Below, in pieces: positions 359 to 25,170 of a DNA stretch of 64,000 nt. The stretch lies in contig OZ020484.1 of NCBI GenBank assembly GCA_963971405.1, positions 33,130,770 through 33,194,769 of the forward strand, read 5' to 3'. Position numbers and translations under genes: made by a program. The notes beneath the pieces were generated by a model. The model saw only the letters and a program-made list of their open reading frames with translations. It was not told the DNA's origin and did not search any database. Positions within the stretch are counted from its first letter, which is position 1. Each line of letters opens with the position of its first letter. The stretch comes from Psococerastis gibbosa. Taxonomy: Eukaryota > Arthropoda > Insecta > Psocodea > Psocidae.

Positions 359-1478
359 AAAAGAACCGGTACGAGTTTACTCGAACATCCTTTCCAATTT
401 ATCAAAATTAGTAGATAGAGAAAATGAGTAATTTGATTGTAAGTAATTTTCCTACGGCTAAATTTCCGATATCTTGGGGGGGGGGTGTCCCCCTGACGTC
501 ACTGGAGGTGAGATAAATTCTAGATAAGTCAGACCAACACATTACCACACAGCAATAATGGCAGGGTACACAATGCATTTGAGCGTGAATTTTCTATAAT
601 TTTTTCAAAAAAACATTTATTTGCACAAAACCAAATAGTTTTTTGGGCAAGTAACCTGTCCGGTTTCGTTACTCAATTTAACACCTAAAACATGCCTGAA
701 AGTAGAAATCATCGATAGAAAGGTTTCGCAGAAAAATTATTTTTTAGTCATTTTTCATGAAAATTTAGTTATTTTTAGTTTTTTTACCCCCAGAAGCAAA
801 CTATCAAGGGGCAAGCGACCCCCCGCATTTTGTCAAAATTAATGACGACTACAATATATGAGAATTTAAAAGAAATCGTTGGAGCCGTTTTTGAGAAATA
901 AATTTTTTGGACCTTTTTTGGAATTTTTTGAGAATAAAACCCCCCCAAATTGAGTTAGCCCAAAATAAAAAAAAATGTCCCGAGGTATGATTTTTGTGAA
1001 CCTACAGGCCGAATTTCATCAAAATTGACCGAGTAGTTTCCCCGGAAATCGATGAACAGACAGACAGAGCGACAGACAGACAGACATTTCGTAAAAACCA
1101 CTTTTTTGGGTTCCTGGGACCTCAAAACGTGTAATTCCGTTGAAATCTTGGAATCAAAAATGTGAACCGTCACACGACGACACGACACGTCCAGAGGAGG
1201 GAGGAAACATCCCTCCTAAAGCGTATACAGAACATGGCACTCCCTGGACCCCGCCCGCGGGGAAGACCGAAAATGACACTCCCCAGAAAAATCGAAGAAG
1301 ACATAAGGACTCTCGCCCAGAACAAGGAAGACGCTCTAAACTGAGTTGTTTGGAAACGCCGCTGCCGTGCCGCCGACCCTCCCTGAGGAAAAAGGCGATG
1401 TAAAAGTAAAAGTAAGTACAAAGCGTTCCTTATACTACGTATAAATTGGAAAGCAATAAATCGAAAAATAAATTTTTG
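359..1478 (+). repeat. Element A, copy 1 (interrupted by a LINE tail)
   Basis: This is a copy of the commonest interspersed repeat in the window. It begins at 'aagaaccggt', passes a G-run near 477, a block on 'agaccaacacattacc', a C-run near 941 and a 'gacagacagaca' tract near 1,060, and ends at 'ataaattggaaagcaa' near 1,450. Both ends carry 'tttccaattta' in inverted orientation, as in a DNA transposon. No coding capacity is evident. The 'atttcatcaaaat...gacagacagaca' stretch resembles 3' ends of arthropod LINEs or Helitrons, but the class is undecided. The copy is broken at ~1,176-1,416 by a LINE fragment. Confidence 0.75.
1162..1416 (+). pseudogene. LINE ORF2 C-terminal fragment
   Basis: A frame through this stretch reads ...HVQRREETSLLKRIQNM..., then PRPRGRPKM, RKIEEDIRTLAQNKEDALN, a stop, then VVWKRRCRAADPP. 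This is the typical basic tail after the reverse transcriptase domain of arthropod non-LTR retrotransposons (a HV-RR...GRPKM...IEEDI pattern). It is 5'-truncated and carries stops, so it is dead. It ends in an 'aaaagtaaaagtaagta' tail, which fits the short microsatellite-like 3' tails of RTE-type LINEs. It sits inside element A copy 1 and is therefore younger than that copy. Confidence 0.7.
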
Positions 1479-4228
1479 GTCTGATGTTGCGTTTAACACG
1501 GAAAAGGTCAATAAATCCAGTACCTACAGTACGTTACAGTACAAAAAAAATTGCAAATTTTGTATTGGAATTGCGAAATTAAACGTTAGTCCAAATGATC
1601 TAAACGGAATTAAGTCAATTGTTTTTGCGAAATAGTGGACCTGAAAAATTGTCAAGTTCCGTTTATCCCCTATTTTTAACATACTGCAATTTTATTATTG
1701 GTTAACTCGTAACCTTACTTTGTAAAGTCATGCTTACCCTGTTACATTGGTCGATGTTATGCTTGTCTCAGCTTGTCCATTATCGCTCTTGTAGCTGGTG
1801 TACAATTGTATCGAGTCCGTTTCAGTTTGTTAGTGGCCAAAAGTTCTAACGGAAAGTAATCAACTGCGCAAGAAGTAAACACAAGAAAAATCACCTTACC
1901 ATAGTTTATGTAAATTGTCGATAGTTTCAGATAATTTAGCACTACCGGTAATCTCCTGTATTAATAAAACATGGTACGTCACGCTAGACCTGATTCATGG
2001 TACTAAAGCCACAAAAAGTATCGACTTTGACACTGACAAAGACTCCATCAGCTGTATTGGAATGACAAGAGTAACTTATGCTATTGACATGCCGCCACTT
2101 GATTAATGATTCATGCGTTGACAACGTAATATGATGAACGACGAGCATTAAAGACAATTTTGGCATTGCTGCCACAGCCTGAAAAAACAACATGTTTTCG
2201 ATCAAGTATAAGGGAGTGGCTGGGGGGAGACGATGATGAAATATCCGACTATTTAGAGCTGTTTTGACAATATGAGTGACTGATGTCTTTTTCGTAATGC
2301 TCACACTATTGAAAGTGCTGAGGTATAAGTATGACAAGCTACTTACCGATTGGAGGCAGGGCCAGGGCAGATCCAGAGCATAGCTAGTACAGAGTCAGGG
2401 CAGAGCCTATGGATATGAGACAGCTGTCTCTCATTCAGTTGCAAAAATGTTTCAGGAACCATTGATTCAAGTAAAGTACCTATCTGGAGACCGAGCATAT
2501 AGGCCTAAGCTTGGCTAGTGTAGTGAAAATAAGTTATTTAGGCTATAAATGAAAGTTCTATTTTCTAAATTAATTTTCAGTTGATTTTCATAAAGGTATG
2601 AGGCAGGAATTTCTTTTCTGTTTAATAGAGGCCTGTGTGAAAATGGGAAATTAAAAGTGGGTCCAAATGAAATCTTCAATATTAAAAGAATATGTTCTAA
2701 AAATGGTCGCAAGCGCTTGGTGTAAATCCCTGACTATAAGACTCGATTGCTTAATCACAAATCCGCTAACTCCCACAGTGGCGTTCCGTAGGCGTAAACT
2801 GATTATTAATTACTTATTTCACAGCCTATAGCTTTTAAAATATGAAATTCCAATTTTTTTTACTAACGTAGCCTACACATGATTGTACACTTTTCAAATT
2901 CTTTTATAATTGTATGCAAAATAAAAAATGGGAAATGTTGAACTTACTCAATATGAATGAATGAATATGTGAATGAATGAATAAGTGAATGAATGAATGT
3001 GTATTAAATATAAAAACAATTTAAACACAATTATTGTAAAGCCCCACCCTACCCTAAAACTAAATAAAAGTGAAAAAATTCAATTAGACATACAGTACTT
3101 AAACTAACTTATTAAGCTACACTTACATATTAATAACAGATCTCTAAAAATATATATAGCTGCATTATACGGTGTACATAACACTGACGTTAAACTAACT
3201 TAGGTCGAAGAGGTAAACTCCACTTCATAATCTACTCCCCGGATTATACGTACGGCATAAATCGTGCTGGGTATGAGTCCCAGACTGTCCAGATTTTTCA
3301 TCATTTCCCATTTCCCATTTTCTTCCACCTTCGTCTAATATGAAAAATTATCTTAGCGTGTTCAAAATGAGAACGTGTATGACGTGCGGGTTGGAATACT
3401 GACCTATGAGGGAGGACGAGAAGCAACTTCTATCCTTATTCTGTGGCAACTGCTACATGTGCGATTGAGATGCAAATGTTGCGCTACTTCCTCGGGTATT
3501 AGCTGAGGGATAGGCGGAGAAACGAAATCGAGGGGAGATGTAGGTAGCCCTTATAAAAAGTCAGGGAACAGAGGTTAGCATGGAGAAAAGATGGACACCT
3601 GCTACAACGTGTTAGTGACTACTCGGTGGAGGGCGCCAGACCACAAGCACGATCAAAGATGTCCCTAGAAACCAAAGCGTGGCGGGTGAAGAAGATGTTC
3701 ATGTATGAAACTTCTGGAAGTTGCAGATCCGTGCCGCCACAGGAGGGCAAGGGGCCTTTAAATAAATTAAAGAATATCGTAGCGTGTAAAGGAGCCTTAA
3801 AAGCACACCCAAGCCTTGGGCTCCTATAGCCTGAGACCTCGATCTCGGAACATAATTTGGTAACCCCATCCTCACATTTTACTTCATGCGATTGAAAATA
3901 TGGAACTGAACCTTTTAATTTATTCTTAAAATTGTGGAAATCGGATAGCATTGCTTGTATACAATACTGGCATAGCATACGTAAAAAAGGTATCGTATAA
4001 CGACGAAGAGGAAAAATCTTTGCGAACAGAAGCGGATCATTATATACCCGCAGAAATCTTTTTTCAATCCAATCAAAAGGAAATGTGATGAGATTGTGAA
4101 GGAAAGGCTACCAGCTGACTGAGTCCAATAATTGGGAATGCTTCCTAAACCGACAGCACTTTTATGGAATAATGACTTGCAGCAAACTTCAAATTTCATT
4201 TAAAATTATAATAGAAATGCAATGAAGT
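1479..4228. other. Non-coding stretch, no recognised gene
   Basis: I see no supportable gene. A degenerate GAAT tetranucleotide microsatellite lies at about 2,950-3,000. Overlapping ORFs on both strands at 3,619-3,978 (119 aa on the minus strand) match no family I know and show no splice or domain signature. Confidence 0.4.
2950..3000. repeat. (GAAT)n microsatellite, imperfect
   Basis: Repeated 'gaatgaatgaat' blocks are interrupted by 'atgt' and 'aagt' units. Confidence 0.85.
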
Positions 4229-5221: not shown

Positions 5222-5356
5222 TAAGTCGGTGGCAAGGTGGTAGTGCATAAGTCTCTACTCACTTTGCGCTCGGAGACATGTCGCAACTAGATGCAAGTTA
5301 CTAAGTGAGGGGACTGAATCATTCATTAAATTGTTTGTATGCGATTAGCAATTTTT
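5222..5356 (-). repeat. Interspersed repeat B, copy 1 (SINE-like)
   Basis: This is a short diverged copy of a ~180-bp repeat also found at 42,975, 49,610, 50,050 and 57,115. Anchors are 'gtcggtggcaaggtgg', 'ctcggagacatgtcg' and 'tgtttgtatgcgatta'. It lies directly beside element A, as repeat B also does near 19,829. Confidence 0.6.
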
Positions 5357-6222
5357 GCTTTCCAATTTAAACGTAGTATAAGGAAAGCTTTGTGATGGTC
5401 GAAATTTTCGATTCCGAGATTTCAACGGATTTACACGTTTTGAGGTCCCAGGAACCCAAAAAAGTGGTTTTTACAAAATGTCTGTCTGTCGGTCGGTCTG
5501 TCGGTCTGTCGGTCTGTCTGTTCGTCGATTTCCGGGCAAACTACTCGGTGGATTTGAGTGAAATTTGGCATGTAGGTTCACAAAAATCATACCTCGGGAC
5601 CATTTTTTTTTTGGGCTAACTCAATTTGGGGGGGTTTTATTTTCAAAAAACTCCAAAAAACGTCTAAAAATATTATTTCTCAAAAACGGCTCCAACAATT
5701 TCTTTTAAATTCTCGTAGATTGTAGTCGTTATTAATGTTGACAAAATGCGGGGGGTCGCTTGCCCCTTGATAGTTTGCTTCTGGGGGTAAAAAAATAAAA
5801 ATAACTAAATTTTAATGAAAAAATGACTAAAAAATGCGAAACCTTTCTATCGATGATTTCTACCTTCAAGCATGTTTTAGGTGTTAAATTGAGTAACGAA
5901 ACCGGATAGGTTGCTTTCCCAAAAAAATATTTGGTTTTGCCCAAAAAATTATTTTTTGAAAAAAATGATAGAAAATTCGCGCTCAAATGCATTGCATGCC
6001 CTGCCATTATTGCTGTGTGGTAATTAATGTGTTTGTTTGACCTATCGAGAATTTACCTCACTTCCAGTGACGTAAGGTGGACAACCGCCCCCCCCCCCCC
6101 CCGAGATATCGGAAATTTAACCATAGGAAAAATATTTGCCATAAAATTACTAATTTTCTCTATCTAATAATTTTGATAAATTGGAAAGCATGTTCGAGTG
6201 AACTCGGACCGGTTCTTTTTAA
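5357..6222 (-). repeat. Element A, copy 2
   Basis: A nearly complete copy in reverse orientation, from 'tgctttccaattta' to 'actcggaccggttcttt'. It carries the usual 'gtctgtcggtctgtcggt' tract, G-run and C-run. ORFs within it are low-complexity shadows. Confidence 0.75.
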
Positions 6223-6763: not shown

Positions 6764-6771
6764 CAGCTAAA
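6764..6771 (+). repeat. hAT target-site half X (cagctaaa), left of copy 1
   Basis: The 8 bp before the 5' end of copy 1 are 'cagctaaa'. They do not match the 8 bp after copy 1 ('agtacccg'). They match exactly, as reverse complement, the 8 bp left of copy 2 at 15,993-16,000. Confidence 0.9.
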
Positions 6772-7255
6772 CAGTGCCGGGTTTGGCTATGGGGCACTGT
6801 GGGCCCGGGCCCCAGGGCCCCCACAAAAATGGGGCCCCCACAAAACGAAAAAATACAAATAAAAAATTGAAAAAATTAAAAAAAATCAAAACAGATAACT
6901 TTTTAAATTTTCGCGGGAAATTCGAACGCATCGTGGCATTAATGACTCATTTTTGATAAAAATTTAACAAAAAATGAAGTATGTCCACTCCTGCTCTGAA
7001 ACCACGATTGTTTTGCTTCATTAAATACAAATTGAAAATTTGAAATCAAATTTCTAAATTGAAACTACTTTTATCAGCACTTTCTGGTTGGTATATTGTT
7101 AAGGTAAGTAGCATAAGTTAATTCTTATATTAGAGGCGGAAGTACCTAATAGTTGTTCTTTATAAGATAAGGTCCTTATTTTTCGTATTCTGCGCCCATT
7201 TACCACAATTCACAGAACGCATCAAAACTTTGTAAGCCTATTAATTTTAATACGA

Positions 7256-7446
7256 AATGTGCCCAGCCACGTGGTCGCCACAAAATCGAGCACGTTATAA
7301 ATATAAAATTCATTGGTCTAAAATGTTATATGTCATAAAATGTTATATTATAAGACGCATGATTCGGAATTTTGAGATGTTTTATACAAAAGGGGATAAA
7401 AAATAAAATGTATTCGATTTTGTGGTGACCACGTGGCTGCACATTT
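7256..7446. repeat. Inverted repeat inside the hAT leader
   Basis: Arms of about 38 bp, 'gtgcccagccacgtggtcgc...' and its near reverse complement, flank a ~115-bp AT-rich core upstream of the transposase start. The same structure is in copy 2 (about 19,154-19,344). It could be an older MITE captured by the hAT element, or a promoter or transposase-binding dyad. Confidence 0.7.
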
Positions 7447-7557
7447 CATCTTAAGTAGGGCAATAGGAACAAGTGGACTAGATAATTAGGCTCTGGCTAG
7501 TGAGTTCTGAAAAAACTAATTTATTACAATTTTTATTTTTGATTCCGTAGTGAAATA

Positions 7558-10307
7558 ATGGATCGTCACAAGGGAAAACGCGAATATGCAAGCGGCAGTG
7601 AAAAGCGGAAAATCGCAGCAGATAAAGAAAACAAAATTCAAGATGTTTTATCTAAAACGCGCCGTATAACGGATTTTGTAACAAAAATAGAGACGGGTCC
7701 ATCTACTCCTAGTTCTACTTCTAATTTTGTTGAAATGATGAGTGGTGATTCTGATTTTCCTGCATCTTCTCAAGTTATTGCTAGCCCTACCCAAGAGGTA
7801 AGAGTTTGACTTTAATTACTTAATTAAGGTGACCGCAATCAAAAATTACCGACCCCACTCACCCCAGTAATTCTTATGGAATTAAAAATGGGGGACTCCT
7901 GTTAATTTACTGTATGAATTAAACCTACCTAAACTTGAGTCGGCCATGCCGAAAGGATTGTTTACAAAATTAATTACAACTGTAATTGTTTTACTTGTAG
8001 GCAGTAATTGATAACAATGACGAATCCGAAAATACTGCTGATGATGGATTTTGCAAAGAAAATGACGTGGGATTGTGGCCAGCAGTTCTTAGTCAACAAC
8101 ACATCGACTATTGGATCAAGAAAGGAAATTTGGAAACTCAGCATTGTAATGAAGATATTTTGAAAGAAAAAAGCTTGGGACAAGTAGATGCAGTGAAAAG
8201 AAGAAAATGCCATGCAAGTTTATTCCTTCGTCAAACTCAGGCAGGCAAGTCTATAAGCCGCTCTTGGTTATGTTTTTCACCTAGTACGGGGAAGCTATAC
8301 TGCTTTTATTGTAAATTGCTCTGCAAATCAGCAAATCAGTTTTCAACTGAAGGGTTTGCTGACTGGAAGCATGCGTCTGAGCGTTTGAAAAGACATGAAA
8401 CTACCGTAACGCATTTGCAAATAGTTTGCCAATTTAAGCATCTCTCAAACGAGGCAATGCGTATTGATCGTGAGTTGGCCACACAAGTGAAGGAGAGCAT
8501 TGCTTATTGGCGAAACGTTCTAAACAGATTGATTTCCGTCATAATATTTCTTTCTGGACGAGGACTTGCCTTTCGAGGGGACAACGAAATTTTGGGATCA
8601 ACCAAAAATGGCAATTATTTGGGAGTCCTTGAGCTAATTGCACAATATGATCCGTTTTTAGTAGGCCACTTAGAGAAGCATGGAAATCGTGGCAGTGGTA
8701 GTGGCGGCGTTAACTACCTATCTGCCCACATTTGCGAAGAATTAATTGCGCTGATGTCCACCAAAGTTAGCGATGAAATAATTAAACGCTTAAAAGCCTG
8801 CAAATATTATTCGGTTTCGGTAGATTCAACAACTGACGAAGGCCATATAGATCAAATGACTGTGATTGTCAGGTATCTAGAAGAAAGCACACCAAAGGAA
8901 AGATTTCTTAGTTTTATGCCAAACCAAGGCCATAAAGCTAAAGAATTATTTGATGGCCTCAACAAAGTTTTAAAAAAGTTCGGCCTGGATTTGAAAGATA
9001 TTCGTGGGCAGTCGTATGACAATGCTTCCGCTATGAGTGGAGAATATAGTGGTCTACGCACTTTGGTGCTAAATGAGAATCCTTTGGCTTTATGGGTTCC
9101 ATGTTTCAATCATTCCCTCAACTTAGTGGGCACAAAAGCGATGGACTCCTGCTCCCAATCGAAATTATTTTTTAGCTTTCTTGAGCAAATTTATGTATTT
9201 TTTACAAGTTCCACAGCTCGGTTCAACGTCCTTTCAAATGTTCTAAAAAGTGCTGCGAAGAAGTATGGCCACAACATACCAGTGCCCAAAAGAATCAGTT
9301 TAACCCGGTGGTCCTCAAGAGCGGAAGCTACTAATAGCCTAGTTTTGGGCTATAACGAAATACGAGAAGTCCTTAAAGATCTCTCCGAAGAAGATGTCCA
9401 AGCAAGTGGACTCTATTTGCAAATTACCACGTTGGAGATAGCAATTTACGCTGTTCTTTGGAACGATATACTGGCAAGGGTGAATGCAGTAAACATCAAT
9501 CTCCAGAATCCAAGAATCGACATTAATACTTCGATCAGTGTGATGGAGTCCCTTAAGATCTTCATTGGGGAATTTAGGGATTCTTTCCAAGAATATGAGA
9601 AAAAGGGTGTTGAATTGTGTGGGCACAATTCTTATAAATCGGAAACTTTGCGGAAGCGGATCCGAAATGTGAGGCTAAATCCTTTGGATTATGGGAAAAC
9701 TGAGGAAGCTGAATTCAGTCATAGCGAGAAATTCCGAATCGAAAGTTTCATTCCCATAATTGACCAGTTTATGCAATCATTGGATCGGAGAATTTCAGCA
9801 TATGAAGACATAAATAGGAAATTTGGATTTTTACAATATTTAGAAAAAATAAGCCCTGATGATTTGAAAACTAGGGCAGAGAACCTGGTGAGTTGTTACA
9901 CAGGTGACTTGGACGGTAACTTGTACTTCGAGCTAGTACAGTTTCGTGAGTTTGTGAAATTATTTGTGATAGATGATGCACAAAAAAACAATATAATCGA
10001 AGAAAAACGTATCAGTTTTGAACGGTTCATGTACAATTTGATTTTAGAAAGAGGAGTAGCTGATAGCTTTCCCAATGTAGAAGTACTTTTGAAGATGTAC
10101 TTAGTTATAATGAGTGGCAACATAAGCAGCGAGCGATCTTTTTCCGTACTAAAACACATAAAAAATCCTCGTCGCACCAGTTCTTCTGAAGCTCGGCTTA
10201 GCCATCTTTCAATGCTGAATATAAATCACGACATAGTGGCAGCGTTAAATTATGACGATATAATTGACAGTTTTGCTGTAATAAAGAGTCGAAGAGTGCA
10301 TCTTTAA
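7558..10307 (+). CDS. hAT-family transposase (TTF zinc finger, ZMYM1/DUF4371-like), copy 1
   Basis: Two exons: 7,558-7,797 (80 codons), GT-AG intron 7,798-8,000, and 8,001-10,307, giving about 848 aa. The frame is kept across CAAGAG|gtaaga and ttacttgtag|GCAGTA. The ATG at 7,558 opens a basic N-terminus. A TTF/MYM-like zinc finger lies at about residues 165-215 (WLCFSPSTG, YCFYCKLL, then H residues in FADWKHASERLKRH). The catalytic triad is visible: D355 in SVDSTTD, D420 in GQSYDNA and E791 in SSERSFS in the C-terminal dimerisation domain. CFNH (448-451) and TRW (W517) are also typical hAT signatures. In this family the enzyme cuts and reinserts its own element in the nucleus. There is no stop or frameshift. 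An AATAAA overlaps the stop codon. It differs from copy 2 at L553 (Met there). Confidence 0.93.
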
Positions 10308-10599
10308 ATAAATTAAAATTTTGTGTTTATAATTAGGTACCTATTAATTTATTCCTTTTAAAAATACACCGCAGTGTCTACAGCTTTAGTTGAGTAGCCC
10401 TTAGGCTTGTATTGTACTATTGACTTGACTTTATATTACTAAGAATCGCTTTTCTTTTTTATAATGATTTTGCAACCTGTGTCACCATTTTATAATTTAT
10501 TGTGGGATATTCGTCTAAGGGGATTAGAAATTTCTCCCCGAGAAAGGGCCCCCACATAATTCGGGCCCACGGGCCCCCACAAGCCCAAACCCGGCACTG

Positions 10600-10607
10600 A
10601 GTACCCG
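10600..10607 (+). repeat. hAT target-site half Y (agtacccg), right of copy 1
   Basis: The 8 bp after copy 1 are 'agtacccg'. Their match is the reverse complement 'cgggtact' at 19,829-19,836, right of copy 2. Confidence 0.9.
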
Positions 10608-10720
10608 TATTGAGTTACTACACCTCTCCAATCGCATGGCGTGTAGAGACTCGCTGAAGTCCAAGCAAGCTAGCTACCGCCTTAACATCGAAGTTGAAAT
10701 CTTTTTGTGGTAACTGGAAA
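10600..10720 (+). repeat. Repeat B, split half 1
   Basis: Starts abruptly at the hAT end with 'agtacccgtattgagtta' and continues through 'gcgtgtagagactcgc', aligning with the middle and right of the intact repeat at 50,128-50,225. The missing left half is at 19,829-19,885. Confidence 0.8.
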
Positions 10721-10744
10721 CGCAACCTTCAAAGACCGTGACAA

Positions 10745-10820
10745 AAGTTCACCAACGGTCATACCATGTTGAATCCATCAGAACATAGCCTGTTTAAAAC
10801 AGCAGCAAAATTGGTAGTAC
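10745..10820 (+). repeat. Repeat E, 5' fragment
   Basis: 'ggtcataccatgttgaatcca' and 'ttggtagtac' match the beginning of the repeats at 4,433 and 45,345. The remainder is absent. Confidence 0.5.
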
Positions 10821-11460
10821 TAATAACAATAAATAATATTAATATTTTTAACGAGTTATTTCTAGAATTGGTATATACGGTACTTACAACTTATTTATTG
10901 TATAAAATGAAATAACCCGAAGTATTTCGGCCAAAGTGACTTGAAAGCACCCCTTTTACGGCTATTGGTCTGGCGTAGAACAACAACTGTTGTCAAGCAT
11001 GTAACTTACGTATAGTATGTGCATATAAAAAAAATGGGCAAATATAAAGCAAAGTGCAACAATTCCCCCTTCCTTCCTTTATTTAATTACAAAGAAACTC
11101 AAAGGGTTAATTCACGCTCTAAATGCTCTGTAAGTGGATCATATACTGTATATAATGCTTTTCGCAGAATGGCATCATAATTTTCCTTAAGGGTTATATC
11201 GCCTGAGTTTTTCCACTAAGGATTTTATTATGGGTATATGCAGAGTGTGTGGAAACCCACAGATAAGTGTTAAGCCTATTTCGAAACGAATTTGGAATAG
11301 CCTTATTTTGAAGAGGAAAATATTCATAATCTTGCCTATCCCAAGTGGTATATGTTGTCTGCATATCCAATAATACATTGTAAGGTGTGAATGTTATTGC
11401 AGATACATAATGAGAAGACAAATATCACGTTAAAACTGATATAGGGTACCATGAAAAAAC
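10821..11460. other. Non-coding stretch
   Basis: AT-rich; no supportable gene. Short minus-strand ORFs at 11,187-11,421 overlap each other and match no family I know. Confidence 0.4.
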
Positions 11461-11505
11461 TGAATCAGGTGGGATTCGAACCCACAATATATGCCTAAGG
11501 CCGTC
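11461..11505 (-). repeat. tRNA-like SINE fragment
   Basis: On the minus strand it carries a B-box-like 'gtgggttcgaatccc' with a short 5' extension and no complete cloverleaf. It is a SINE remnant, not a tRNA gene. Confidence 0.45.
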
Positions 11506-11593
11506 TACACACGGGGATACTCAAATTGCAACGCAACGCGGGTCCGTAACACGTCGTAGACTTGGCTCCACACACGAAGCTACCACGCCTATA

Positions 11594-11747
11594 GGCGCTT
11601 ATTCCACCGACGTCAATAGTTTACTACAATAGTTTACTATTGACGTGTTTGACGTGGTTGCAGACATTAAAGACAGTGTAAAAATGTCTGCAACCACGTC
11701 AATATCAGCAATATTTTGACTATTGACGTCGGTGGAATTTAAGCGCC
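11594..11747. mobile_element. GGCG-type foldback element, small copy
   Basis: A palindromic 154-bp element. It starts 'ggcgcttattccaccgacgt' and ends with nearly the reverse complement. Its inner arms share 'gacgtggttgcagacatt'. The 3-bp flanks are ATA on both sides. It belongs with the larger copies at 41,259 and 46,384. Confidence 0.7.
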
Positions 11748-11784
11748 ATATGATAACTGAGACTTTCGAGTAGAGACCGAGACC

Positions 11785-12487
11785 AGAGCATTTTTTCAAA
11801 AATTATTTCTCAAAAGCGGCTCAAACGATTTCTTTTAAATTCACATATATTGTAGCCATTATTAATGTTAATAATCGCTTGCCCTTTGATAGTTTGTTCC
11901 TGGGGGTAAAAAAATAAAAATAACTAAATTTTCATGAAAAATGACTAAAACATAATTTTTCTGCGGAACCTTGCTATCGATGATTTCTACCTTCAGGTAT
12001 GTTTTAGGTGTTCAATAGAGTAACAAAACCAAACAGGTTGATTTCCGAAAAAAATATTTGATTCTATTCAAAAAATTATTTTTTGAAGAAATTATGGAAA
12101 ATTCACGCTCCAATACATTGCGTGCACTGTCATTGTTACTACTGTTACAATGTATTAGTCTGTTCGTTCCAGAATATGCAATCGAGTTTTAAGGGTTTTT
12201 TTAATAGATTGAGGTGGACCCCCCCCACAATGAAATTATTTACTATGAAATTACACATTATGCCTATCTACTAATTCAAGGCCGTAGCCAGGATTTTGTT
12301 CAGGGGGGTTCAGAAAATTTGTTGGATATTACATAGCAGTTTTTATTTTTCCTCTCAAAAATCGATTCTATCTAGTATCAAGCCATTTCATTTCGGGGGG
12401 GGGGGGGGGGGGGTTGAACCCCCATGACCCCCCCTTGTACTAATTTATAAATTGGAAAGCATGTTCGAGTAAATTTGGACCGATTCT
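11785..12487 (-). repeat. Element A, copy 3 (partial, interrupted)
   Basis: Reverse-orientation copy lacking the 'gacagacaga' end, running from 'ttatttctcaaaagcggctc' to 'ggaaagcatgttcgagtaaa'. A poly-G MITE is inserted at 12,277-12,437. Confidence 0.7.
12277..12437. mobile_element. Poly-G hAT-type MITE, 161 bp
   Basis: Starts 'caaggccgtagcc' and ends '...cccccttg', flanked on both sides by the perfect 8-bp duplication 'tactaatt' (12,269-12,276 and 12,438-12,445). It contains a G-run of about 18 at 12,395. The 8-bp duplication and the CAAG terminus point to a hAT transposase. It interrupts element A copy 3. Confidence 0.8.
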
Positions 12488-14630
12488 TTATATTATGTAA
12501 CAGGCCAAAACTCAGATAAATTATTTAAAATTCACTCAAATAGCTGTCGACTACTTCGGTCCTAGTTTCTCTCTTCTTGTTGGCTATCGTCAGCCTTCCT
12601 TCCACCAAAAAATCAACTGAACCTTTCTTTGTACTGACAACACCAGCCAACTCTAGGAAATTCATGTTTAGCGGAGGAATCGGTATAATTACGAATGCAC
12701 AGTACTAAGACATGACCCAAAATGCAGCGGTTGACTATAGTAGGCTACCATTCCAGTCGTGTGGGATGATAACGGGAAAGATACCAATTTTTGAACTCGA
12801 TTTGTAAAGAATACCGGACAAGGAAGATTACGGAGGATGGAGTTTAAAAAATGTGGCCAATCGGTTTCAGTGACGGTAACATGCCATATATTAAAATATA
12901 GAGGAGAATTACTTCTAATATAATGGATGTGGCAGTTTGAGTGCTCTACAATGCCTTCATTGCGTGACTTATTTATTTATTTTGTGTGATAGAATGCTGA
13001 ATCCAGGCAGGTAAATTGGCATTAAAGACAAATTTGATATGGATATTTCCTGTAAAATTATATATTGGTCGAAAACTTATATTGAGGATGTCCAATTCGC
13101 TCTTAATTAATCTCAAACTAAACCGACAAATGTTGTTGCTAGACTACCGACTGTTTGTAATTATTTGGCCTCGCAAAATCTTCTCGTAAATGAATAGTAG
13201 CTGCGGGGTCAGCGTTCTTCTACCTAATTAAATACAGCACAAAACGGCTTATAATTTTCACGATTGACCCTCGAAATTCCCGCGAATTCGCTTAAAGTGC
13301 AATCTTACAACCCACCCTTAATTTACATCTTAATTTCGAATAATTAATTTCTTGTGAAACAAGCTGAAGGGACAAGTCAACAAGGGCTGCGGGAACAGAT
13401 GTTCATAATAGCACTTTACCGTGAGTATACTTCGGGCTTTAATATACGGCTTAGACATACTGTAAACCGTAAGTCAATATAATGCTTCCATTAATGATCA
13501 ATTTTGAACACAATACAGTACAGGCTCTTGGGCGTATTAAATTATTAGAAAAATCCAACGAGTCTCCCAAGTAAACAAACTATTAATGAAAACTATTTGG
13601 AGTTTGTTATTAAAAACCGAGAATAATTCCTGGTATTATGGAGTAATGCTTTAAACGAGACCATAACTTGATTAGACGTGAGAGCGGTAGTTATCAAGGA
13701 GCAAACAAACCCCCTTTGTCAAAATCACAATTTTGTCCATGGTAGTCTTAGATACTTGTTTTCTCCGATCAATCACCCGCAGATGATCAGCAGGCAAAAT
13801 TTTCCCAACTTCTGTCACAGCCTCGTCCAAGGCTGGTTCTTGAGGCTGGTTACGTCGTGCAAACTCCCTGCGGCCACACCACACGAGTTCATGCAAATTT
13901 TTTGCGTCCACACACTTTTCGTACGGTACGAATCAACGAATCGATCAACAGGAGTTGACCTCTTAAACCGCAGAAATCTAATCACAGACTCAGAATGGCG
14001 GGAGCGTCGATTTTCCGCTTCATCGTCATTAGACACCATTGGGTTTCGTAGACAAAGTATTAACGATTATTTGGATTTTACTAATTCTTGTTATAGTTTT
14101 TTTTAACGAGTTTTGATAAAACTAAGTTTTTGTTTGTTTGTTTATTTATTCATCGTCAGCGGCTGCTACGCCTCGAGTGAGTTTCGCTTAAGGGATGATA
14201 TAGAACAGTGGTGGGAGACACAAGGAACCCGGGGCAGTTTTCAGATTTAAGTTAGCTCGCTCCGCCAAGACGGGAGCTCGTTTGAGACTCAAATTTACAG
14301 AAACCCCTATAGCAGGTCTATATGGTTATTTATTTGTATATTTATTTTTATTTTGATTGCTAACTCACCCATTTCCCATTTTAGTTCAGGTAAGTGAATA
14401 TCTCTATTAGATAGAAAATGTTTAGCATCGTTTAGCACCTTGTTTTTAGAAAACAATTCCAATTTTACACTTTAAATTTTAATAATGAATTATTGAAGTT
14501 TCCACGCATGAATGTACAATATTCTATGTGAAATGTACAGTAATGTACAGAATGACTGTTTAAGTTTAAGTAATTTACTCATTCATTTAATTTGGAAAAA
14601 CGTGAACACCTTTAAAGTTATCTATTGTAT
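12488..14630. other. Non-coding stretch with unrecognised overlapping ORFs
   Basis: No gene I can support. At 13,672-14,106 there are overlapping ORFs on both strands (142 aa plus, 79 and 74 aa minus). None resembles a known family and no splice sites stand out. It may be a degraded transposon. Confidence 0.35.
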
Positions 14631-14811
14631 TTATAATTGTAGAAAGAATGAGACGCAACTGATCCACAATAAAATATATTAAACGTGACCGGTTTCGGTA
14701 AAATACCATCATCAGACAGTTCATGTCTGATGATGGTATTTTACCGAAACCGGTCACGTTTAATATATTTTATTGTGGATCAGTTGCGTCTCATTCTTTC
14801 TACAATTATAA
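14631..14811. repeat. Perfect 88-bp-arm hairpin
   Basis: Arms 14,631-14,718 and 14,724-14,811 are exact reverse complements by eye, around the loop 'gttca'. The arm contains 'gaccggtttcggtaaaat' and 'accatcatcagaca'. No mismatch was seen, so it is either very young or maintained by conversion. It has no coding content. Confidence 0.9.
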
Positions 14812-15540
14812 GTATGATGAAGTTCCACGAAGTCACTTTGGAGAATCTCACTATGATTATCTATTGTATTTTCACATTGTTAATGCCGTCTCTATTTTTA
14901 TAGAAATTATTTTAAATAGAAATTTATTGTCATAAATAGTGTAGAATATACTGTAGCATGATTTTGATGATGGATAATGGAGTTTTTTATGTAGCCTGCA
15001 AGCAGTATACAATTTCATATAATCATCAATGGGATTTGTGATGGGTAAGGGGAACAAAATTTAATAATGGCAACAGCACTTTGAAGAAAAGTCTCTTTAG
15101 GGACTAGAGAGTCCTCGAAAAATACCTTTCAGAAACCACTACTTTTAGAATAAATAGCATATATCCGTAGAGATATAGATACAATCTAAAGTCTGCCTGT
15201 AACATAATATTCAAAATTTAGATCTAGATTAAAACAATAAAATGAGATTGTAACCAAGAGAATTTACGTAACTCGAGGAAAATGTTAAGCTGAAGTTTAA
15301 GAGTGAACTTTTCTCCTTCATTTGAGTGTTTCAGACACTCGGAAACTTTTCTAATGTTTGAAAAAGAAAGGAATTATTTGTTAGGTGTGGGTTCTTTCTT
15401 CCTTCAGGTCGTGAAAGAGTATCGTCTCTTAATTTTATCAAAAAAGATAAACTTACTAGCGGAGCAGGGGTGAATCCAGGATTTTGCCAAAGGTTGGCAG
15501 AAGACCCATGAGCAACGAGAACTCCACGGAGCTGATATCG
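14812..15540. other. Non-coding stretch
   Basis: No gene, RNA or complete repeat recognised. Short ORFs here are unsupported. Confidence 0.4.
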
Positions 15541-15548
15541 TATCCATA

Positions 15549-15734
15549 CAATGGCGGGGGGGGGGGGGAGGGTCAGAGGGGTCATGACCCCCCCTAAATG
15601 AGTAAATATCATAAGATACCTAGTAACAAAAAAAAGAGAATAAAACTCAACTTTTCAACAACAAAAATTACCTTTTAAACTTACAAAAACGTGTGACCCC
15701 CCCCCCCATACATTTTTGGCTGGATCCGCCATTG
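15549..15734. mobile_element. Poly-G hAT-type MITE, 186 bp
   Basis: Starts 'caatggcgggggg' and ends 'ggatccgccattg'. It has a perfect 8-bp duplication 'tatccata' at 15,541-15,548 and 15,735-15,742. Inside are G- and C-runs around an AT-rich core, as in the MITEs at 52,678 and 57,381. Confidence 0.85.
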
Positions 15735-15940
15735 TATCCATAAGAGAGTTTCTTCAGTGACTTCGTGGAAGTGATACTATACTATATAATTATACTATTA
15801 AAAATTTATGTTTTGGAATTAAGTGCAATTTTATTTATAATTATTTACTTATTTGTCTGATATCGTATGTTACTTGAGTTATTTAGCGACAAAATTTGGC
15901 ACCAGCTTACATATTTTGATTAAACAATCTCACTTGGATG

Positions 15941-15985
15941 TAGGGGGGGGGGTACGGGTGGGGGGGGGTGGGTTTGGGTGAATTT
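15941..15985 (+). repeat. G-rich low-complexity tract
   Basis: Successive runs of eight to nine G separated by 'tacgggt' and 'tgggtttgggtg'. On one strand it could form a G-quadruplex. It lies just left of hAT copy 2. Confidence 0.7.
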
Positions 15986-15992
15986 TTTCACT

Positions 15993-16000
15993 TTTAGCTG
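15993..16000 (-). repeat. hAT target-site half X' (tttagctg), left of copy 2
   Basis: Exact reverse complement of the 8-mer left of copy 1. It does not match the 8-mer right of copy 2. Confidence 0.9.
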
Positions 16001-19000
16001 CAGTGCCGGGTTTGGGCTTGTGGGGGCCCGTGGGCCCGAATTATGTGGGGGCCCTTTCTCGGGGAGAAATTTCTAATCCCCTTAGACGAATATCCCACAA
16101 TAAATTATAAAATGGTGACACAGGTTGCAAAATCATTATAAAAAAGAAAAGCGATTCTTAGTAATATAAAGTCAAGTCAATAGTACAATACAAGCCTAAG
16201 GGCTACTCAACTAAAGCTGTAGACACTGCGGTGTATTTTTAAAAGGAATAAATTAATAGGTACCTAATTATAAACACAAAATTTTAATTTATTTAAAGAT
16301 GCACTCTTCGACTCTTTATTACAGCAAAACTGTCAATTATATCGTCATAATTTAACGCTGCCACTATGTCGTGATTTATATTCAGCATTGAAAGATGGCT
16401 AAGCCGAGCTTCAGAAGAACTGGTGCGACGAGGATTTTTTATGTGTTTTAGTACGGAAAAAGATCGCTCGCTGCTTATGTTGCCACTCATTATAACTAAG
16501 TACATCTTCAAAAGTACTTCTACATTGGGAAAGCTATCAGCTACTCCTCTTTCTAAAATCAAATTGTACATGAACCGTTCAAAACTGATACGTTTTTCTT
16601 CGATTATATTGTTTTTTTGTGCATCATCTATCACAAATAATTTCACAAACTCACGAAACTGTACTAGCTCGAAGTACAAGTTACCGTCCAAGTCACCTGT
16701 GTAACAACTCACCAGGTTCTCTGCCCTAGTTTTCAAATCATCAGGGCTTATTTTTTCTAAATATTGTAAAAATCCAAATTTCCTATTTATGTCTTCATAT
16801 GCTGAAATTCTCCGATCCAATGATTGCATAAACTGGTCAATTATGGGAATGAAACTTTCGATTCGGAATTTCTCGCTATGACTGAATTCAGCTTCCTCAG
16901 TTTTCCCATAATCCAAAGGATTTAGCCTCACATTTCGGATCCGCTTCCGCAAAGTTTCCGATTTATAAGAATTGTGCCCACACAATTCAACACCCTTTTT
17001 CTCATATTCTTGGAAAGAATCCCTAAATTCCCCAATGAAGATCTTAAGGGACTCCATCACACTGATCGAAGTATTAATGTCGATTCTTGGATTCTGGAGA
17101 TTGATGTTTACTGCATTCACCCTTGCCAGTATATCGTTCCAAAGAACAGCGTAAATTGCTATCTCCAACGTGGTAATTTGCATATAGAGTCCACTTGCTT
17201 GGACATCTTCTTCGGAGAGATCTTTAAGGACTTCTCGTATTTCGTTATAGCCCAAAACTAGGCTATTAGTAGCTTCCGCTCTTGAGGACCACCGGGTTAA
17301 ACTGATTCTTTTGGGCACTGGTATGTTGTGGCCATACTTCTTCGCAGCACTTTTTAGAACATTTGAAAGGACGTTGAACCGAGCTGTGGAACTTGTAAAA
17401 AATACATAAATTTGCTCAAGAAAGCTAAAAAATAATTTCGATTGGGAGCAGGAGTCCATCGCTTTTGTGCCCACTAAGTTGAGGGAATGATTGAAACATG
17501 GAACCCATAAAGCCAAAGGATTCTCATTTAGCACCAAAGTGCGTAGACCACTATATTCTCCACTCATAGCGGAAGCATTGTCATACGACTGCCCACGAAT
17601 ATCTTTCAAATCCAGGCCGAACTTTTTTAAAACTTTGTTGAGGCCATCAAATAATTCTTTAGCTTTATGGCCTTGGTTTGGCATAAAACTAAGAAATCTT
17701 TCCTTTGGTGTGCTTTCTTCTAGATACCTGACAATCACAGTCATTTGATCTATATGGCCTTCGTCAGTTGTTGAATCTACCGAAACCGAATAATATTTGC
17801 AGGCTTTTAAGCGTTTAATTATTTCATCGCTAACTTTGGTGGACATCAGCGCAATTAATTCTTCGCAAATGTGGGCAGATAGGTAGTTAACGCCGCCACT
17901 ACCACTGCCACGATTTCCATGCTTCTCTAAGTGGCCTACTAAAAACGGATCATATTGTGCAATTAGCTCAAGGACTCCCAAATAATTGCCATTTTTGGTT
18001 GATCCCAAAATTTCGTTGTCCCCTCGAAAGGCAAGTCCTCGTCCAGAAAGAAATATTATGACGGAAATCAATCTGTTTAGAACGTTTCGCCAATAAGCAA
18101 TGCTCTCCTTCACTTGTGTGGCCAACTCACGATCAATACGCATTGCCTCGTTTGAGAGATGCTTAAATTGGCAAACTATTTGCAAATGCGTTACGGTAGT
18201 TTCATGTCTTTTCAAACGCTCAGACGCATGCTTCCAGTCAGCAAACCCTTCAGTTGAAAACTGATTTGCTGATTTGCAGAGCAATTTACAATAAAAGCAG
18301 TATAGCTTCCCCGTACTAGGTGAAAAACATAACCAAGAGCGGCTTATAGACTTGCCTGCCTGAGTTTGACGAAGGAATAAACTTGCATGGCATTTTCTTC
18401 TTTTCACTGCATCTACTTGTCCCAAGCTTTTTTCTTTCAAAATATCTTCATTACAATGCTGAGTTTCCAAATTTCCTTTCTTGATCCAATAGTCGATGTG
18501 TTGTTGACTAAGAACTGCTGGCCACAATCCCACGTCATTTTCTTTGCAAAATCCATCATCAGCAGTATTTTCGGATTCGTCATTGTTATCAATTACTGCC
18601 TACAAGTAAAACAATTACAGTTGTAATTAATTTTGTAAACAATCCTTTCGGCATGGCCGACTCAAGTTTAGGTAGGTTTAATTCATACAGTAAATTAACA
18701 GGAGTCCCCCATTTTTAATTCCATAAGAATTACTGGGGTGAGTGGGGTCGGTAATTTTTGATTGCGGTCACCTTAATTAAGTAATTAAAGTCAAACTCTT
18801 ACCTCTTGGGTAGGGCTAGCAATAACTTGAGAAGATGCAGGAAAATCAGAATCACCACTCATCATTTCAACAAAATTAGAAGTAGAACTAGGAGTAGATG
18901 GACCCGTCTCTATTTTTGTTACAAAATCCGTTATACGGCGCGTTTTAGATAAAACATCTTGAATTTTGTTTTCTTTATCTGCTGCGATTTTCCGCTTTTC

Positions 19001-19828
19001 ACTGCCGCTTGCATATTCGCGTTTTCCCTTGTGACGATCCATTATTTCACTACGGAATCAAAAATAAAAATTGTAATAAATTAGTTTTTTCAGAACTCAC
19101 TAGCCAGAGCCTAATTATCTAGTCCACTTGTTCCTATTGCCCTACTTAAGATGAAATGTGCAGCCACGTGGTCACCACAAAATCGAATACATTTTATTTT
19201 TTATCCCCTTTTGTATAAAACATCTCAAAATTCCGAATCATGCGTCTTATAATATAACATTTTATGACATATAACATTTTAGACCAATGAATTTTATATT
19301 TATAACGTGCTCGATTTTGTGGCGACCACGTGGCTGGGCACATTTCGTATTAAAATTAATAGGCTTACAAAGTTTTGATGCGTTCTGTGAATTGTGGTAA
19401 ATGGGCGCAGAATACGAAAAATAAGGACCTTATCTTATAAAGAACAACTATTAGGTACTTCCGCCTCTAATATAAGAATTAACTTATGCTACTTACCTTA
19501 ACAATATACCAACCAGAAAGTGCTGATAAAAGTAGTTTCAATTTAGAAATTTGATTTCAAATTTTCAATTTGTATTTAATGAAGCAAAACAATCGTGGTT
19601 TCAGAGCAGGAGTGGACATACTTCATTTTTTGTTAAATTTTTATCAAAAATGAGTCATTAATGCCACGATGCGTTCGAATTTCCCGCGAAAATTTAAAAA
19701 GTTATCTGTTTTGATTTTTTTTAATTTTTTCAATTTTTTATTTGTATTTTTTCGTTTTGTGGGGGCCCCATTTTTGTGGGGGCCCTGGGGCCCGGGCCCA
19801 CAGTGCCCCATAGCCAAACCCGGCACTG
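16001..19828 (-). mobile_element. Complete hAT transposon, copy 2 (3,828 bp)
   Basis: Same length, ends, intron and subterminal motifs as copy 1, in opposite orientation. By reading, the two copies are nearly identical over the whole length; the only coding difference found is codon 553 (ATG here, TTG in copy 1). Such identity means recent amplification or gene conversion. The flanking 8-mers (tttagctg and cgggtact) are mispaired in the way expected after an inversion with copy 1 as partner. Confidence 0.95.
16293..19042 (-). CDS. hAT-family transposase (TTF zinc finger, ZMYM1/DUF4371-like), copy 2
   Basis: Exon 1 is 19,042-18,803, the intron 18,802-18,600 and exon 2 18,599-16,293, giving about 848 aa. 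Splice sites and frame are as in copy 1. All features of copy 1 are kept: the N-terminal basic region, the C/H zinc finger, D355 (SVDSTTD), D420 (GQSYDNA), CFNH, TRW and E791 (SSERSFS). Residue 553 is Met instead of Leu, in a variable region between the catalytic residues. I see no stop, frameshift or missing catalytic residue, so both copies could encode working enzyme. The family assignment rests on the motif set and on the element's hAT-type ends. Confidence 0.93.
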
Positions 19829-19836
19829 CGGGTACT
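19829..19836 (+). repeat. hAT target-site half Y (cgggtact), right of copy 2
   Basis: Exact reverse complement of the 8-mer right of copy 1 (10,600-10,607). Confidence 0.9.
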
Positions 19837-19885
19837 AACCTACAGAGGCGACTGAAGAGGTCAATAGGATACGTTCATTACATTA
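19829..19885 (-). repeat. Repeat B, split half 2
   Basis: On the minus strand it reads '...gacctcttcagtcgcctctgtaggttagtacccg' (shown in part) and stops at the hAT end. It is the missing left half of the repeat at 10,600-10,720. Joined, the halves align without gap to the copies at 49,660 and 50,100. Confidence 0.8.
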
Positions 19886-20742
19886 TTGCTTTCCAATTTA
19901 TACGTAGTATAAGGAAAGCTTTGTGATGGTCCAAATTTTCGATTCCGAGATTTCAACGGATTTACACGTTTTGAGGTCCCAGGAACCCAAAAAAGTGGTT
20001 TTTACGAAATGTCTGTCTGTCTGTAGTTCTGTCTGTTCATCGATTTCCGGGCAAACTACTCGGTCGATGTTGATGAAATTTGGCACATAGGTTTACAAAA
20101 ATCATACCTCGGGACAATTTTTTCTATTTTGGGCCAATTCAATTTAGGCTTTTATTCTCAAAAAGGTCAAAAAAAGGTCTAAAAAAATTATTTCTAAAAA
20201 ACAGCTCCAACGATTTCTTTTAAATTCACATATATTGTAATCGTTATTAATGTTGACAAAATGCGGGGGGTCGCTTGCCCCTTGATAGTTTGCTTCTGGG
20301 GGTAAAAAAATAAAAATAACTCAATTTTAATGAAAAATGACTGAAAAATATTTTTTCTGCGAAATGTTTCAATTGATTATTTCTACCTTCAGGCATGTTT
20401 TAGGTGTTAAATTGAGTAACGAAACCGGACAGGTTGCTTTCCCAAAAAAAATTTTGGTTTTGCACAACAAATTATTTTTTGAAAAAATGATAGAAAATTC
20501 GCGCTCAAATGCATTGCGTGCCCTGCCATTATTGCTGTGTGGTAATTAATGTGTTGGTCTGACCTATCTAGAAAATATCTCACTTCCAGTGACGTCAGGT
20601 AGACAACCCCCCCCCCCCCCCCCCCCCGAGATATCGGAAATTTAACCACTGGAAAATTATTTACCATGAAATTCCTCATATTCTCTCTCTACTAATTGAT
20701 AAATTGGAAAGCATGTTCGAGTAAACTCGGACCGGTTCTTTG
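19886..20742 (-). repeat. Element A, copy 4
   Basis: Nearly complete copy from 'tgctttccaatttatacg' to 'actcggaccggttcttt', with a C-run of about 18 at 20,609. It directly adjoins repeat B, as copy 2 does. Confidence 0.8.
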
Positions 20743-23233: not shown

Positions 23234-23484
23234 TAATAGTCCGGGAGCCAGGGGGGGTCTCACTTGACGAAGTTCCGGAGAAGGTTTGAGCTCATGAGGC
23301 GCTTAGGATGTGTCTCTAGTCTGTAAAAAACCTTTTCTTACGAGCCGGCTCTGGGGCTTTTGGGTGCTACAAATTTTTTAAAGTGCCTAATTTTTGGAAA
23401 AACTTGACGAACTGGTGGGTCAAAAATTTTCAAAGAAAACTACGCTGAACTATGTACAGTAGACGAAATCTTGAAATCAGAGGA

Positions 23485-25170
23485 TTCCCAGGGGACTTTC
23501 ACCTCAAAAGAAGCAATCCAAAAAGGGTGGGAACGGGAAAAATTTGACAAAGAGGTGGGCTTATAATTTCCTTATATATGATTCCCATCGTTCTCCTGAG
23601 CACAAAAACAAAAAATAAGAAGTTTCTGTTGGGACATTCATCCCTTAAGAAGGGGACAAATTTTCGTCCAATTAAACTTGACAAACGAGATTTTGAGAAA
23701 TCTCAATTTGGAACAGTGCATAGTAGTTTCTAGTATGTCAAAACGTAATTATAAGAAAATTCCGTTAGGGCTTTCAACCCTTAAGAAGCAATCCAAAAAA
23801 GGAGGGAACGGGAAAAATTTGTCGAAGAGGAGGGCTTATAATTTCCCCCTATCTGAAAACCATGTTTTACCCAAGTCTGAAAACTGAAAATAAGAATTTT
23901 TCGTTGGGGCTTTCATCCCTTAAGAGTGGTTCAAATTTTCGTCAAATTTTTCTTGACGAACGAGATAATGACATTTCTCAATTTTAAATAATACCTAGTA
24001 GTTTTTAGTATGTGAAAACGTAATTATCAGACAATTCCGTTGGGGCTTTCACCCCTTAAGAAGCAATCCAAAAGGGGTGGGATCGGGAAAAATTTGACAA
24101 AGAGGTGGGCTTATAATTTCCCTATGTATGATTCCCACCGTTCTCCTGAGCACGAAAACGAAAAATAAGAAGTTTCTGTTGGGACATTCATCCCTTAAGA
24201 GGGGGATAAATTTTCGTCAAATTAAACTTGACGAACGAGATTTTGAGAAATCTGAATTTGGAACAATGCATAGTAGTTTCTAGTATGTCAAAACGTAATT
24301 ATAAGAAAATTCCGTTGGGGCTTTCATCCCCTAAGAAGCAATCCAAAAAGGGAGGGAACGGGAAAAATTTGTCGAAGAGGAGGGTTTATAATTTCCCCTT
24401 ATCTGAAAACCATAGTTCACCCAAATCTGAAAACTGAAAATAAGAATTTTTCGTTGGGGCTTTCATCCCTTAAGAGTGGTTCAAATTTTCGTCAAATTTT
24501 TCTTGACGAACGAGATAATGACATTTCTCAATTTTAAATAATACCTAGTAGTTTTTAGTATGTGAAAACGTAATTATCAGAAAATTCCGTTGGGGCTTTC
24601 ACCCCTTAAGAATCAATCCAAAAGGGGTGGGACCGGGAAAAAATTGACGAAGAGGTGGGCTTATAATTTCCCTATATATGATTCCCACCGTTCTCCTGAG
24701 CTCGAAAAAGAAAAATAAGAAGTTTCTGTTGGAACATTCATCCCTTAAGAAGGGGACAAATTTTCGTCAAATTAAACTTGACGAACGAGATGTTGACAAA
24801 TCTCAATTTTTAACAATTCATAGTAGTTTCTAGTATGACAAAACGTAATTATAAGAAAATTCCATTGGGGCTTTCACCCCTTAAGAAGCAATCCAAAAAA
24901 GGAGGGAACGGGAAAAATTTGTCGAAGAGGTGGGCTAATAATTTCCCCTTATCTGAAAACCATGGTTCACCCAAGTCTGAAAACTGAAAATAAGAATTTT
25001 TCGTTGGGGCTTTCATCCCTTAAGACTGGTTCAAATTTTTGTATAATTTTACTTGACGAATGAGAGGATGACAAATATCAAATTGAAACTATGCGTAATA
25101 GTGTCTAGTATGTGTAAACTTAAATATAAGAAAATTCCGTCGGGGCTTTCACCCTTTAAGACGCTATTCA
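23485..25170 (+). repeat. Higher-order tandem array, left arm (137-bp monomer, 550-bp unit)
   Basis: Monomers start near 23,485, 23,623, 23,760, 23,899, 24,035, 24,173, 24,310, 24,449, 24,585, 24,723, 24,860, 24,999 and 25,135, a spacing of 136-139 bp. Each begins with a form of 'ttccgttggggctttcatccc'-like sequence followed by 'ttaag'. Four monomer types recur in fixed order, so a given type returns every 550 bp (23,760, 24,310, 24,860). Copies 550 bp apart are much more alike than neighbouring monomers. Small ORFs at 23,678 and 24,228 are the same repeated frame and not genes. Confidence 0.9.

Follow-up and report, generated by a model that had tools for sequence, protein, structure and literature searches.

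The window, a stretch of 64,000 nucleotides from the psocid Psococerastis gibbosa (assembly GCA_963971405.1, contig OZ020484.1, positions 33,130,770 to 33,194,769 of the forward strand), carries two oppositely oriented copies of a transposable element assigned to the hAT superfamily, between which 8-bp target duplications appear to have been exchanged. Each copy also borders one half of a dispersed repeat, here termed repeat B. The features at this locus, with positions counted from the first letter of the window, are as follows.

6764..6771, strand +: outer 8-bp target duplication of site A (CAGCTAAA), with its reverse complement at 15993-16000
6772..10599, strand +: hAT copy 1, a complete element of 3,828 bp whose sequence is the one most often seen in the full-length copies retrieved
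7558..7797, strand +: predicted transposase exon 1 of copy 1, with splice sites inferred from GT...AG and the open frame
8001..10307, strand +: transposase exon 2 of copy 1, forming with exon 1 an open frame of 848 aa and containing Pfam DUF4371
10600..10607, strand +: inner 8-mer AGTACCCG (site B), partner of the duplication at 19829-19836
10600..16000, no strand: segment of 5,401 bp, probably inverted relative to the pre-event sequence
10600..10697, strand +: first of the two repeat B halves, abutting copy 1 at the cut; outer boundary approximate
15993..16000, strand +: inner 8-mer TTTAGCTG (site A), partner of the duplication at 6764-6771
16001..19828, strand -: hAT copy 2, a complete element of 3,828 bp with a private substitution at element position 2646
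16293..18599, strand -: transposase exon 2 of copy 2, open
18803..19042, strand -: predicted transposase exon 1 of copy 2
19829..19836, strand +: outer 8-bp target duplication of site B (CGGGTACT)
19829..19887, strand -: second repeat B half, abutting copy 2 at the cut; outer boundary approximate

The two copies constitute the largest inverted repeat within the first 30 kb of the window, with an inter-arm distance of 5,401 bp, and the base at element position 2646 is their sole mismatch. The original prediction, made from the letters of the window, had described them as near-identical, and they lie exactly where it placed them. Copy 1 stands between CAGCTAAA and AGTACCCG and copy 2 between TTTAGCTG and CGGGTACT; neither is flanked by a matching pair, and every flanking 8-mer recurs, as its reverse complement, beside the other copy. 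This mismatched but reciprocal arrangement, likewise predicted beforehand, is confirmed to the base. Two specified 8-mer matches are expected by chance with a probability of 4^-16 = 2.3e-10.

The element ends in terminal inverted repeats (5' end CAGTGCCGGGTTTGG..., 3' end ...CCAAACCCGGCACTG) and encodes a predicted transposase in two exons separated by a GT...AG intron, the frame of which is open over 848 residues in both copies. It is assigned to the hAT superfamily because of the transposase domains and the 8-bp duplications in the copies examined. The transposase matches DUF4371, which we take to be a typical domain of hAT transposases, with an E-value of 9.4e-20, and a C-terminal fragment matches Dimer_Tnp_hAT at an E-value of 0.0015 with 18.7 bits, under the curated cut-off of 21.4. 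Dimer_Tnp_hAT is not among the Pfam matches of the whole exon-2 protein at E <= 0.001, and a sequence search for a solved relative of the transposase returned none at the same threshold (E <= 0.001).

The host genome searched comprises 409.2 Mb in 68 contigs and contains the exact 26-bp 3' end of the element 172 times (90 forward and 82 reverse), the window copies included. Among the 170 non-window copies so recognized, 107 were examined: 20 as whole copies, 78 by short stretches at their ends, and 9 more that were chosen partly for their membership in close pairs. Fourteen of these lack a 5' end where one was expected and were excluded from the count (12 end-sampled copies together with L076 and L078). 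A matching 8-bp duplication is present in all 93 two-ended copies that remain (18 whole, 66 end-sampled and 9 from the close-pair set), which sets an upper 95% bound of approximately 3% on non-matching copies, and among the copies examined only those in the window depart from this rule. The mismatch therefore needs an event at the window locus. The first 84 duplications are mutually distinct, and none of them equals a window 8-mer. The target preference seen in this set is mildly palindromic, with T at position 3 in 43 and A at position 6 in 37 of the 84. The copies surveyed include an inverted pair on contig C21 that is full length by end spacing, has 13.5 kb between its 3' ends and retains matching duplications at both members; this un-flipped pair indicates that separate insertions do place inverted copies close together. 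Four copies of the element form a local cluster within the first 0.7 Mb of this 12-Mb contig (C21:428243-661184), and the duplications match in all four.

Repeat B provides independent evidence for a flip. The original prediction held that this repeat is cut exactly at the element ends and that its halves, at 10,600 and 19,829, are rejoined once the intervening segment is turned around. When 19 repeat B loci were compared, out of 39 non-window places listed for the half at 10600, the reconstructed join at site B was found to be spanned in 18, and in 17 without a gap in the 8-mer; in L022 the 8-mer is interrupted by 2 inserted bp, and L021 matches a different part only. As a control, the join of the present order at copy 1, with the element omitted, is spanned in none of the 19. 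A genome search with the rejoined 360 bp (best 40 of 1,552 candidates) recovered three further loci that span the join at 83-89% identity, the other matches listed being the two broken window halves and 35 places that contain the neighbouring repeat only. Nothing was lost or doubled at the site B breakpoint. Taken together, the exchanged 8-mers and the restored repeat B lend good support to the predicted 5.4-kb inversion and its limits, and 10600-16000 is probably inverted relative to the sequence that the elements entered.

The copies elsewhere in the genome indicate how recently the family has been active. The sample of 20 whole non-window copies includes 18 with both ends, 16 of them full length and 2 internally deleted. 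The full-length copies measure 3,828 bp, or 5-6 bp more in three cases, and when these 16 are combined with the two window copies, 105 of the 153 pairs show zero substitutions and the maximum difference is three. Across the 16 non-window copies, three private substitutions occur in approximately 61 kb. With an insect-like mutation rate of 2.8e-9 per base and generation, these three substitutions correspond, as a rough estimate, to a family age of the order of 17,000 generations; judged by this divergence, the hAT family is young. The variant base of copy 2 occurs once in the whole genome.

Several members of the family show further structural variation. The two internally deleted copies (L060 and L074; 1,582 and 780 bp) have perfect duplications and, to judge from their structure, are non-autonomous derivatives. 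The extra bases in three otherwise near-identical copies (L059, L069 and L070) are private insertions, namely a 6-bp tandem duplication (AGTACC), TA-TCG-TA and TA-CGAG-TA. The latter two resemble what we take to be Tc1/mariner-type excision footprints, CGAG being presumably Minos-like, which suggests that other transposons entered and then left these young hAT copies. In addition, a self-insertion (L239-L241; G000:C13:40399294-40405763) consists of a copy with its own 8-bp duplication, CTGATGAT, inside a copy of the same family; on its right, the side examined, element positions 1263-3828 of the host copy follow directly.

The likeliest cause of the arrangement in the window, to which we give a probability of roughly 0.6, is a crossover between two prior inverted hAT insertions that flipped the 5.4 kb between them. 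The element-free ancestral state would have read ...CTCAGCTAAAAGTGAAA... and contained an intact repeat B. The young element would then have inserted at two sites approximately 5.4 kb apart in opposite orientations, each insertion creating its own 8-bp duplication. Non-allelic homologous recombination would next have produced a crossover between the copies, 3.8 kb long and practically identical, either inside one chromatid or between sister chromatids, and turned the intervening segment around, leaving each element with one duplication from each site. We infer that the two insertions preceded the flip and that host recombination, not transposase, was its agent. The close spacing of the copies is by itself unremarkable, the probability that the smallest gap among 100 random copies is <=5,427 being 0.21. 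According to PMC8225341, a crossover of inverted elements usually results in non-identical duplications and creates no new duplication. The inversion is probably recent, since it is not older than the insertions of a young family, and it may still be polymorphic; both elements are still in place, and the segment could therefore flip repeatedly.

A number of observations weigh against this crossover. A divergent repeat B match within L019 (71% identity) has an 8-base gap at the join. For site A, the rejoined sequence has no intact empty copy elsewhere among the best 40 of 70 candidates, and in the same set the site A halves occur nowhere but in the window, if a short repeat end is disregarded; because no intact version was found, the flip at site A is read from the 8-mers alone. 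Chimerism of the copies, the customary proof of a crossover, cannot be read here because the copies are practically identical and their single difference is private to copy 2. The analysis is based on one genome assembly. Finally, the original prediction had a single crossover account for the whole arrangement; this fits everything observed and remains the likeliest cause, but it is not the sole predictor, as hybrid element insertion predicts identical anatomy and the same scars.

Hybrid element insertion would derive the arrangement from a single active hAT element through one transposase reaction across sister chromatids, and it is the strongest competitor, although considerably less probable than the crossover. 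The left end of one sister's element and the right end of the other's would be inserted together 5.4 kb away, and this one event would create the inversion along with a second copy and a second 8-bp duplication. When the joins are worked through on paper, the product, t1-E-u'(segment reversed)t1'-E'-u, is the observed structure. In PMC2775673 the outcome of this process is considered strikingly similar to that of a crossover except for identical copies, and chimerism is what separates the two. The window copies are identical save for one private base, and the family appears to have been recently mobile, with the predicted transposase frame open in both copies; the identity of the copies is nevertheless uninformative on this point, because 105 of the 153 full-length pairs compared show no substitution. 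Crossover is preferred because it is documented in nature and a close inverted pair from separate insertions is seen in this genome, and also because inversions formed by hybrid insertion in wild populations were, by their own statement, not known to the authors of PMC7642927 (2020). The spacing of copies across the genome does not decide the matter. Among the 172 copies, 3 neighbour gaps are <=13.6 kb where 0.98 are expected (hand-worked Poisson probability approximately 0.08), one of them being the self-insertion, a mild excess that speaks for hybrid insertion; at wider spacing there is no excess, with 2 gaps <=48.5 kb among 100 listed copies against 2.1 expected.

Inverted repeats 3.8 kb long are well known to cause assembly flips, and two such repeats frame the segment in the window. 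The assembler might have turned the unique sequence between them around, in which case the true duplications would be intact; this was the main alternative named in the original prediction. It is now improbable. Matching flanks occur at every one of the other 93 two-ended copies, including the inverted C21 pair, which implies that the assembly routinely bridges the 3.8-kb repeat correctly, making a misassembly unlikely. Moreover, the window contains no N, and one base distinguishes the two copies.

The maize Ac/Ds elements belong, like the window element, to the hAT superfamily, and are known for an aberrant transposition of two elements by reversed ends. This process is very improbable here, as are two unrelated breaks followed by end joining: reversed-ends transposition, as described in PMC8225341, requires copies in direct orientation, the loss of the fragment between them and a new matching duplication, and is contradicted by window copies that are inverted and complete with all ends intact, by their exchanged duplications and by a repeat B that lost nothing at site B. 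Two 8-mers in exact reciprocal match are not what end joining would lead one to expect.

This kind of event is already known; the window locus adds an unusually clean example, from a hAT family so young that crossover is beyond the customary proof. Among the published inversions found by full-text search, the closest anatomy is that of the Galileo inversions of Drosophila buzzatii (2z3; PMC2775673), which likewise have opposite copies at both breakpoints, exchanged duplications and no loss at the breakpoints. Galileo is a P-superfamily element with 7-bp duplications, whereas the window element is a hAT with 8-bp duplications; furthermore, the window inversion spans only 5.4 kb, its copies are too alike for chimerism to be read, and it is known here from one orientation. 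For P elements, hybrid element insertion (Gray et al. 1996, as cited in PMC7642927, PMC8225341 and PMC2775673) predicts the same exchanged duplications and near-identical copies, and differs in being a transposase reaction as opposed to host recombination. Reversed-ends transposition of maize Ac/Ds (PMC8225341) shares the 8-bp duplications and an inversion with elements at both breakpoints; its direct copies, DNA deletion and matching new duplication are all lacking at the window locus. Sequences derived from hAT elements have also been described at inversion breakpoints in Atlantic cod (PMC12368964), and cases from fly, maize and yeast are cited in that paper; the cod inversion rests on tandem non-autonomous copies, and neither 'target site duplication' nor 'TSD' occurs in the main text. 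A full-text literature search, with most subscription papers outside its reach, found none that names the window locus, and a full-text search on insect inversions with duplications found no relevant paper.

If the inversion is real, the chromosome of the host has already been rearranged by a hAT family that is very young and whose transposase frame is open. The locus poses the question of whether transposon-linked inversions are the work of the host's own recombination, with the copies passive, or of the transposase; were hybrid insertion the true origin, it would represent a naturally occurring inversion of that kind. The copy survey additionally indicates that target duplications can be used genome-wide, copy by copy, as a check on both rearrangement and assembly error.

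Other features of the window lie within or near the inverted segment. Two open reading frames inside it have no Pfam match at E <= 0.01. The segment also contains a palindrome at 14628-14814, with 91-bp arms that are 99% complementary and separated by a 5-bp spacer. Another dispersed repeat occurs at 5351-6172, 11798-12140 and 19882-20697, and in inverted orientation at approximately 345-1174, with one partial copy inside the inverted segment. Further downstream, a tandem array with a 275-bp period occupies 23476-25150. Every other unit in it is more similar (78-92% to the first), a pattern that hints at higher-order repeats built from two units.

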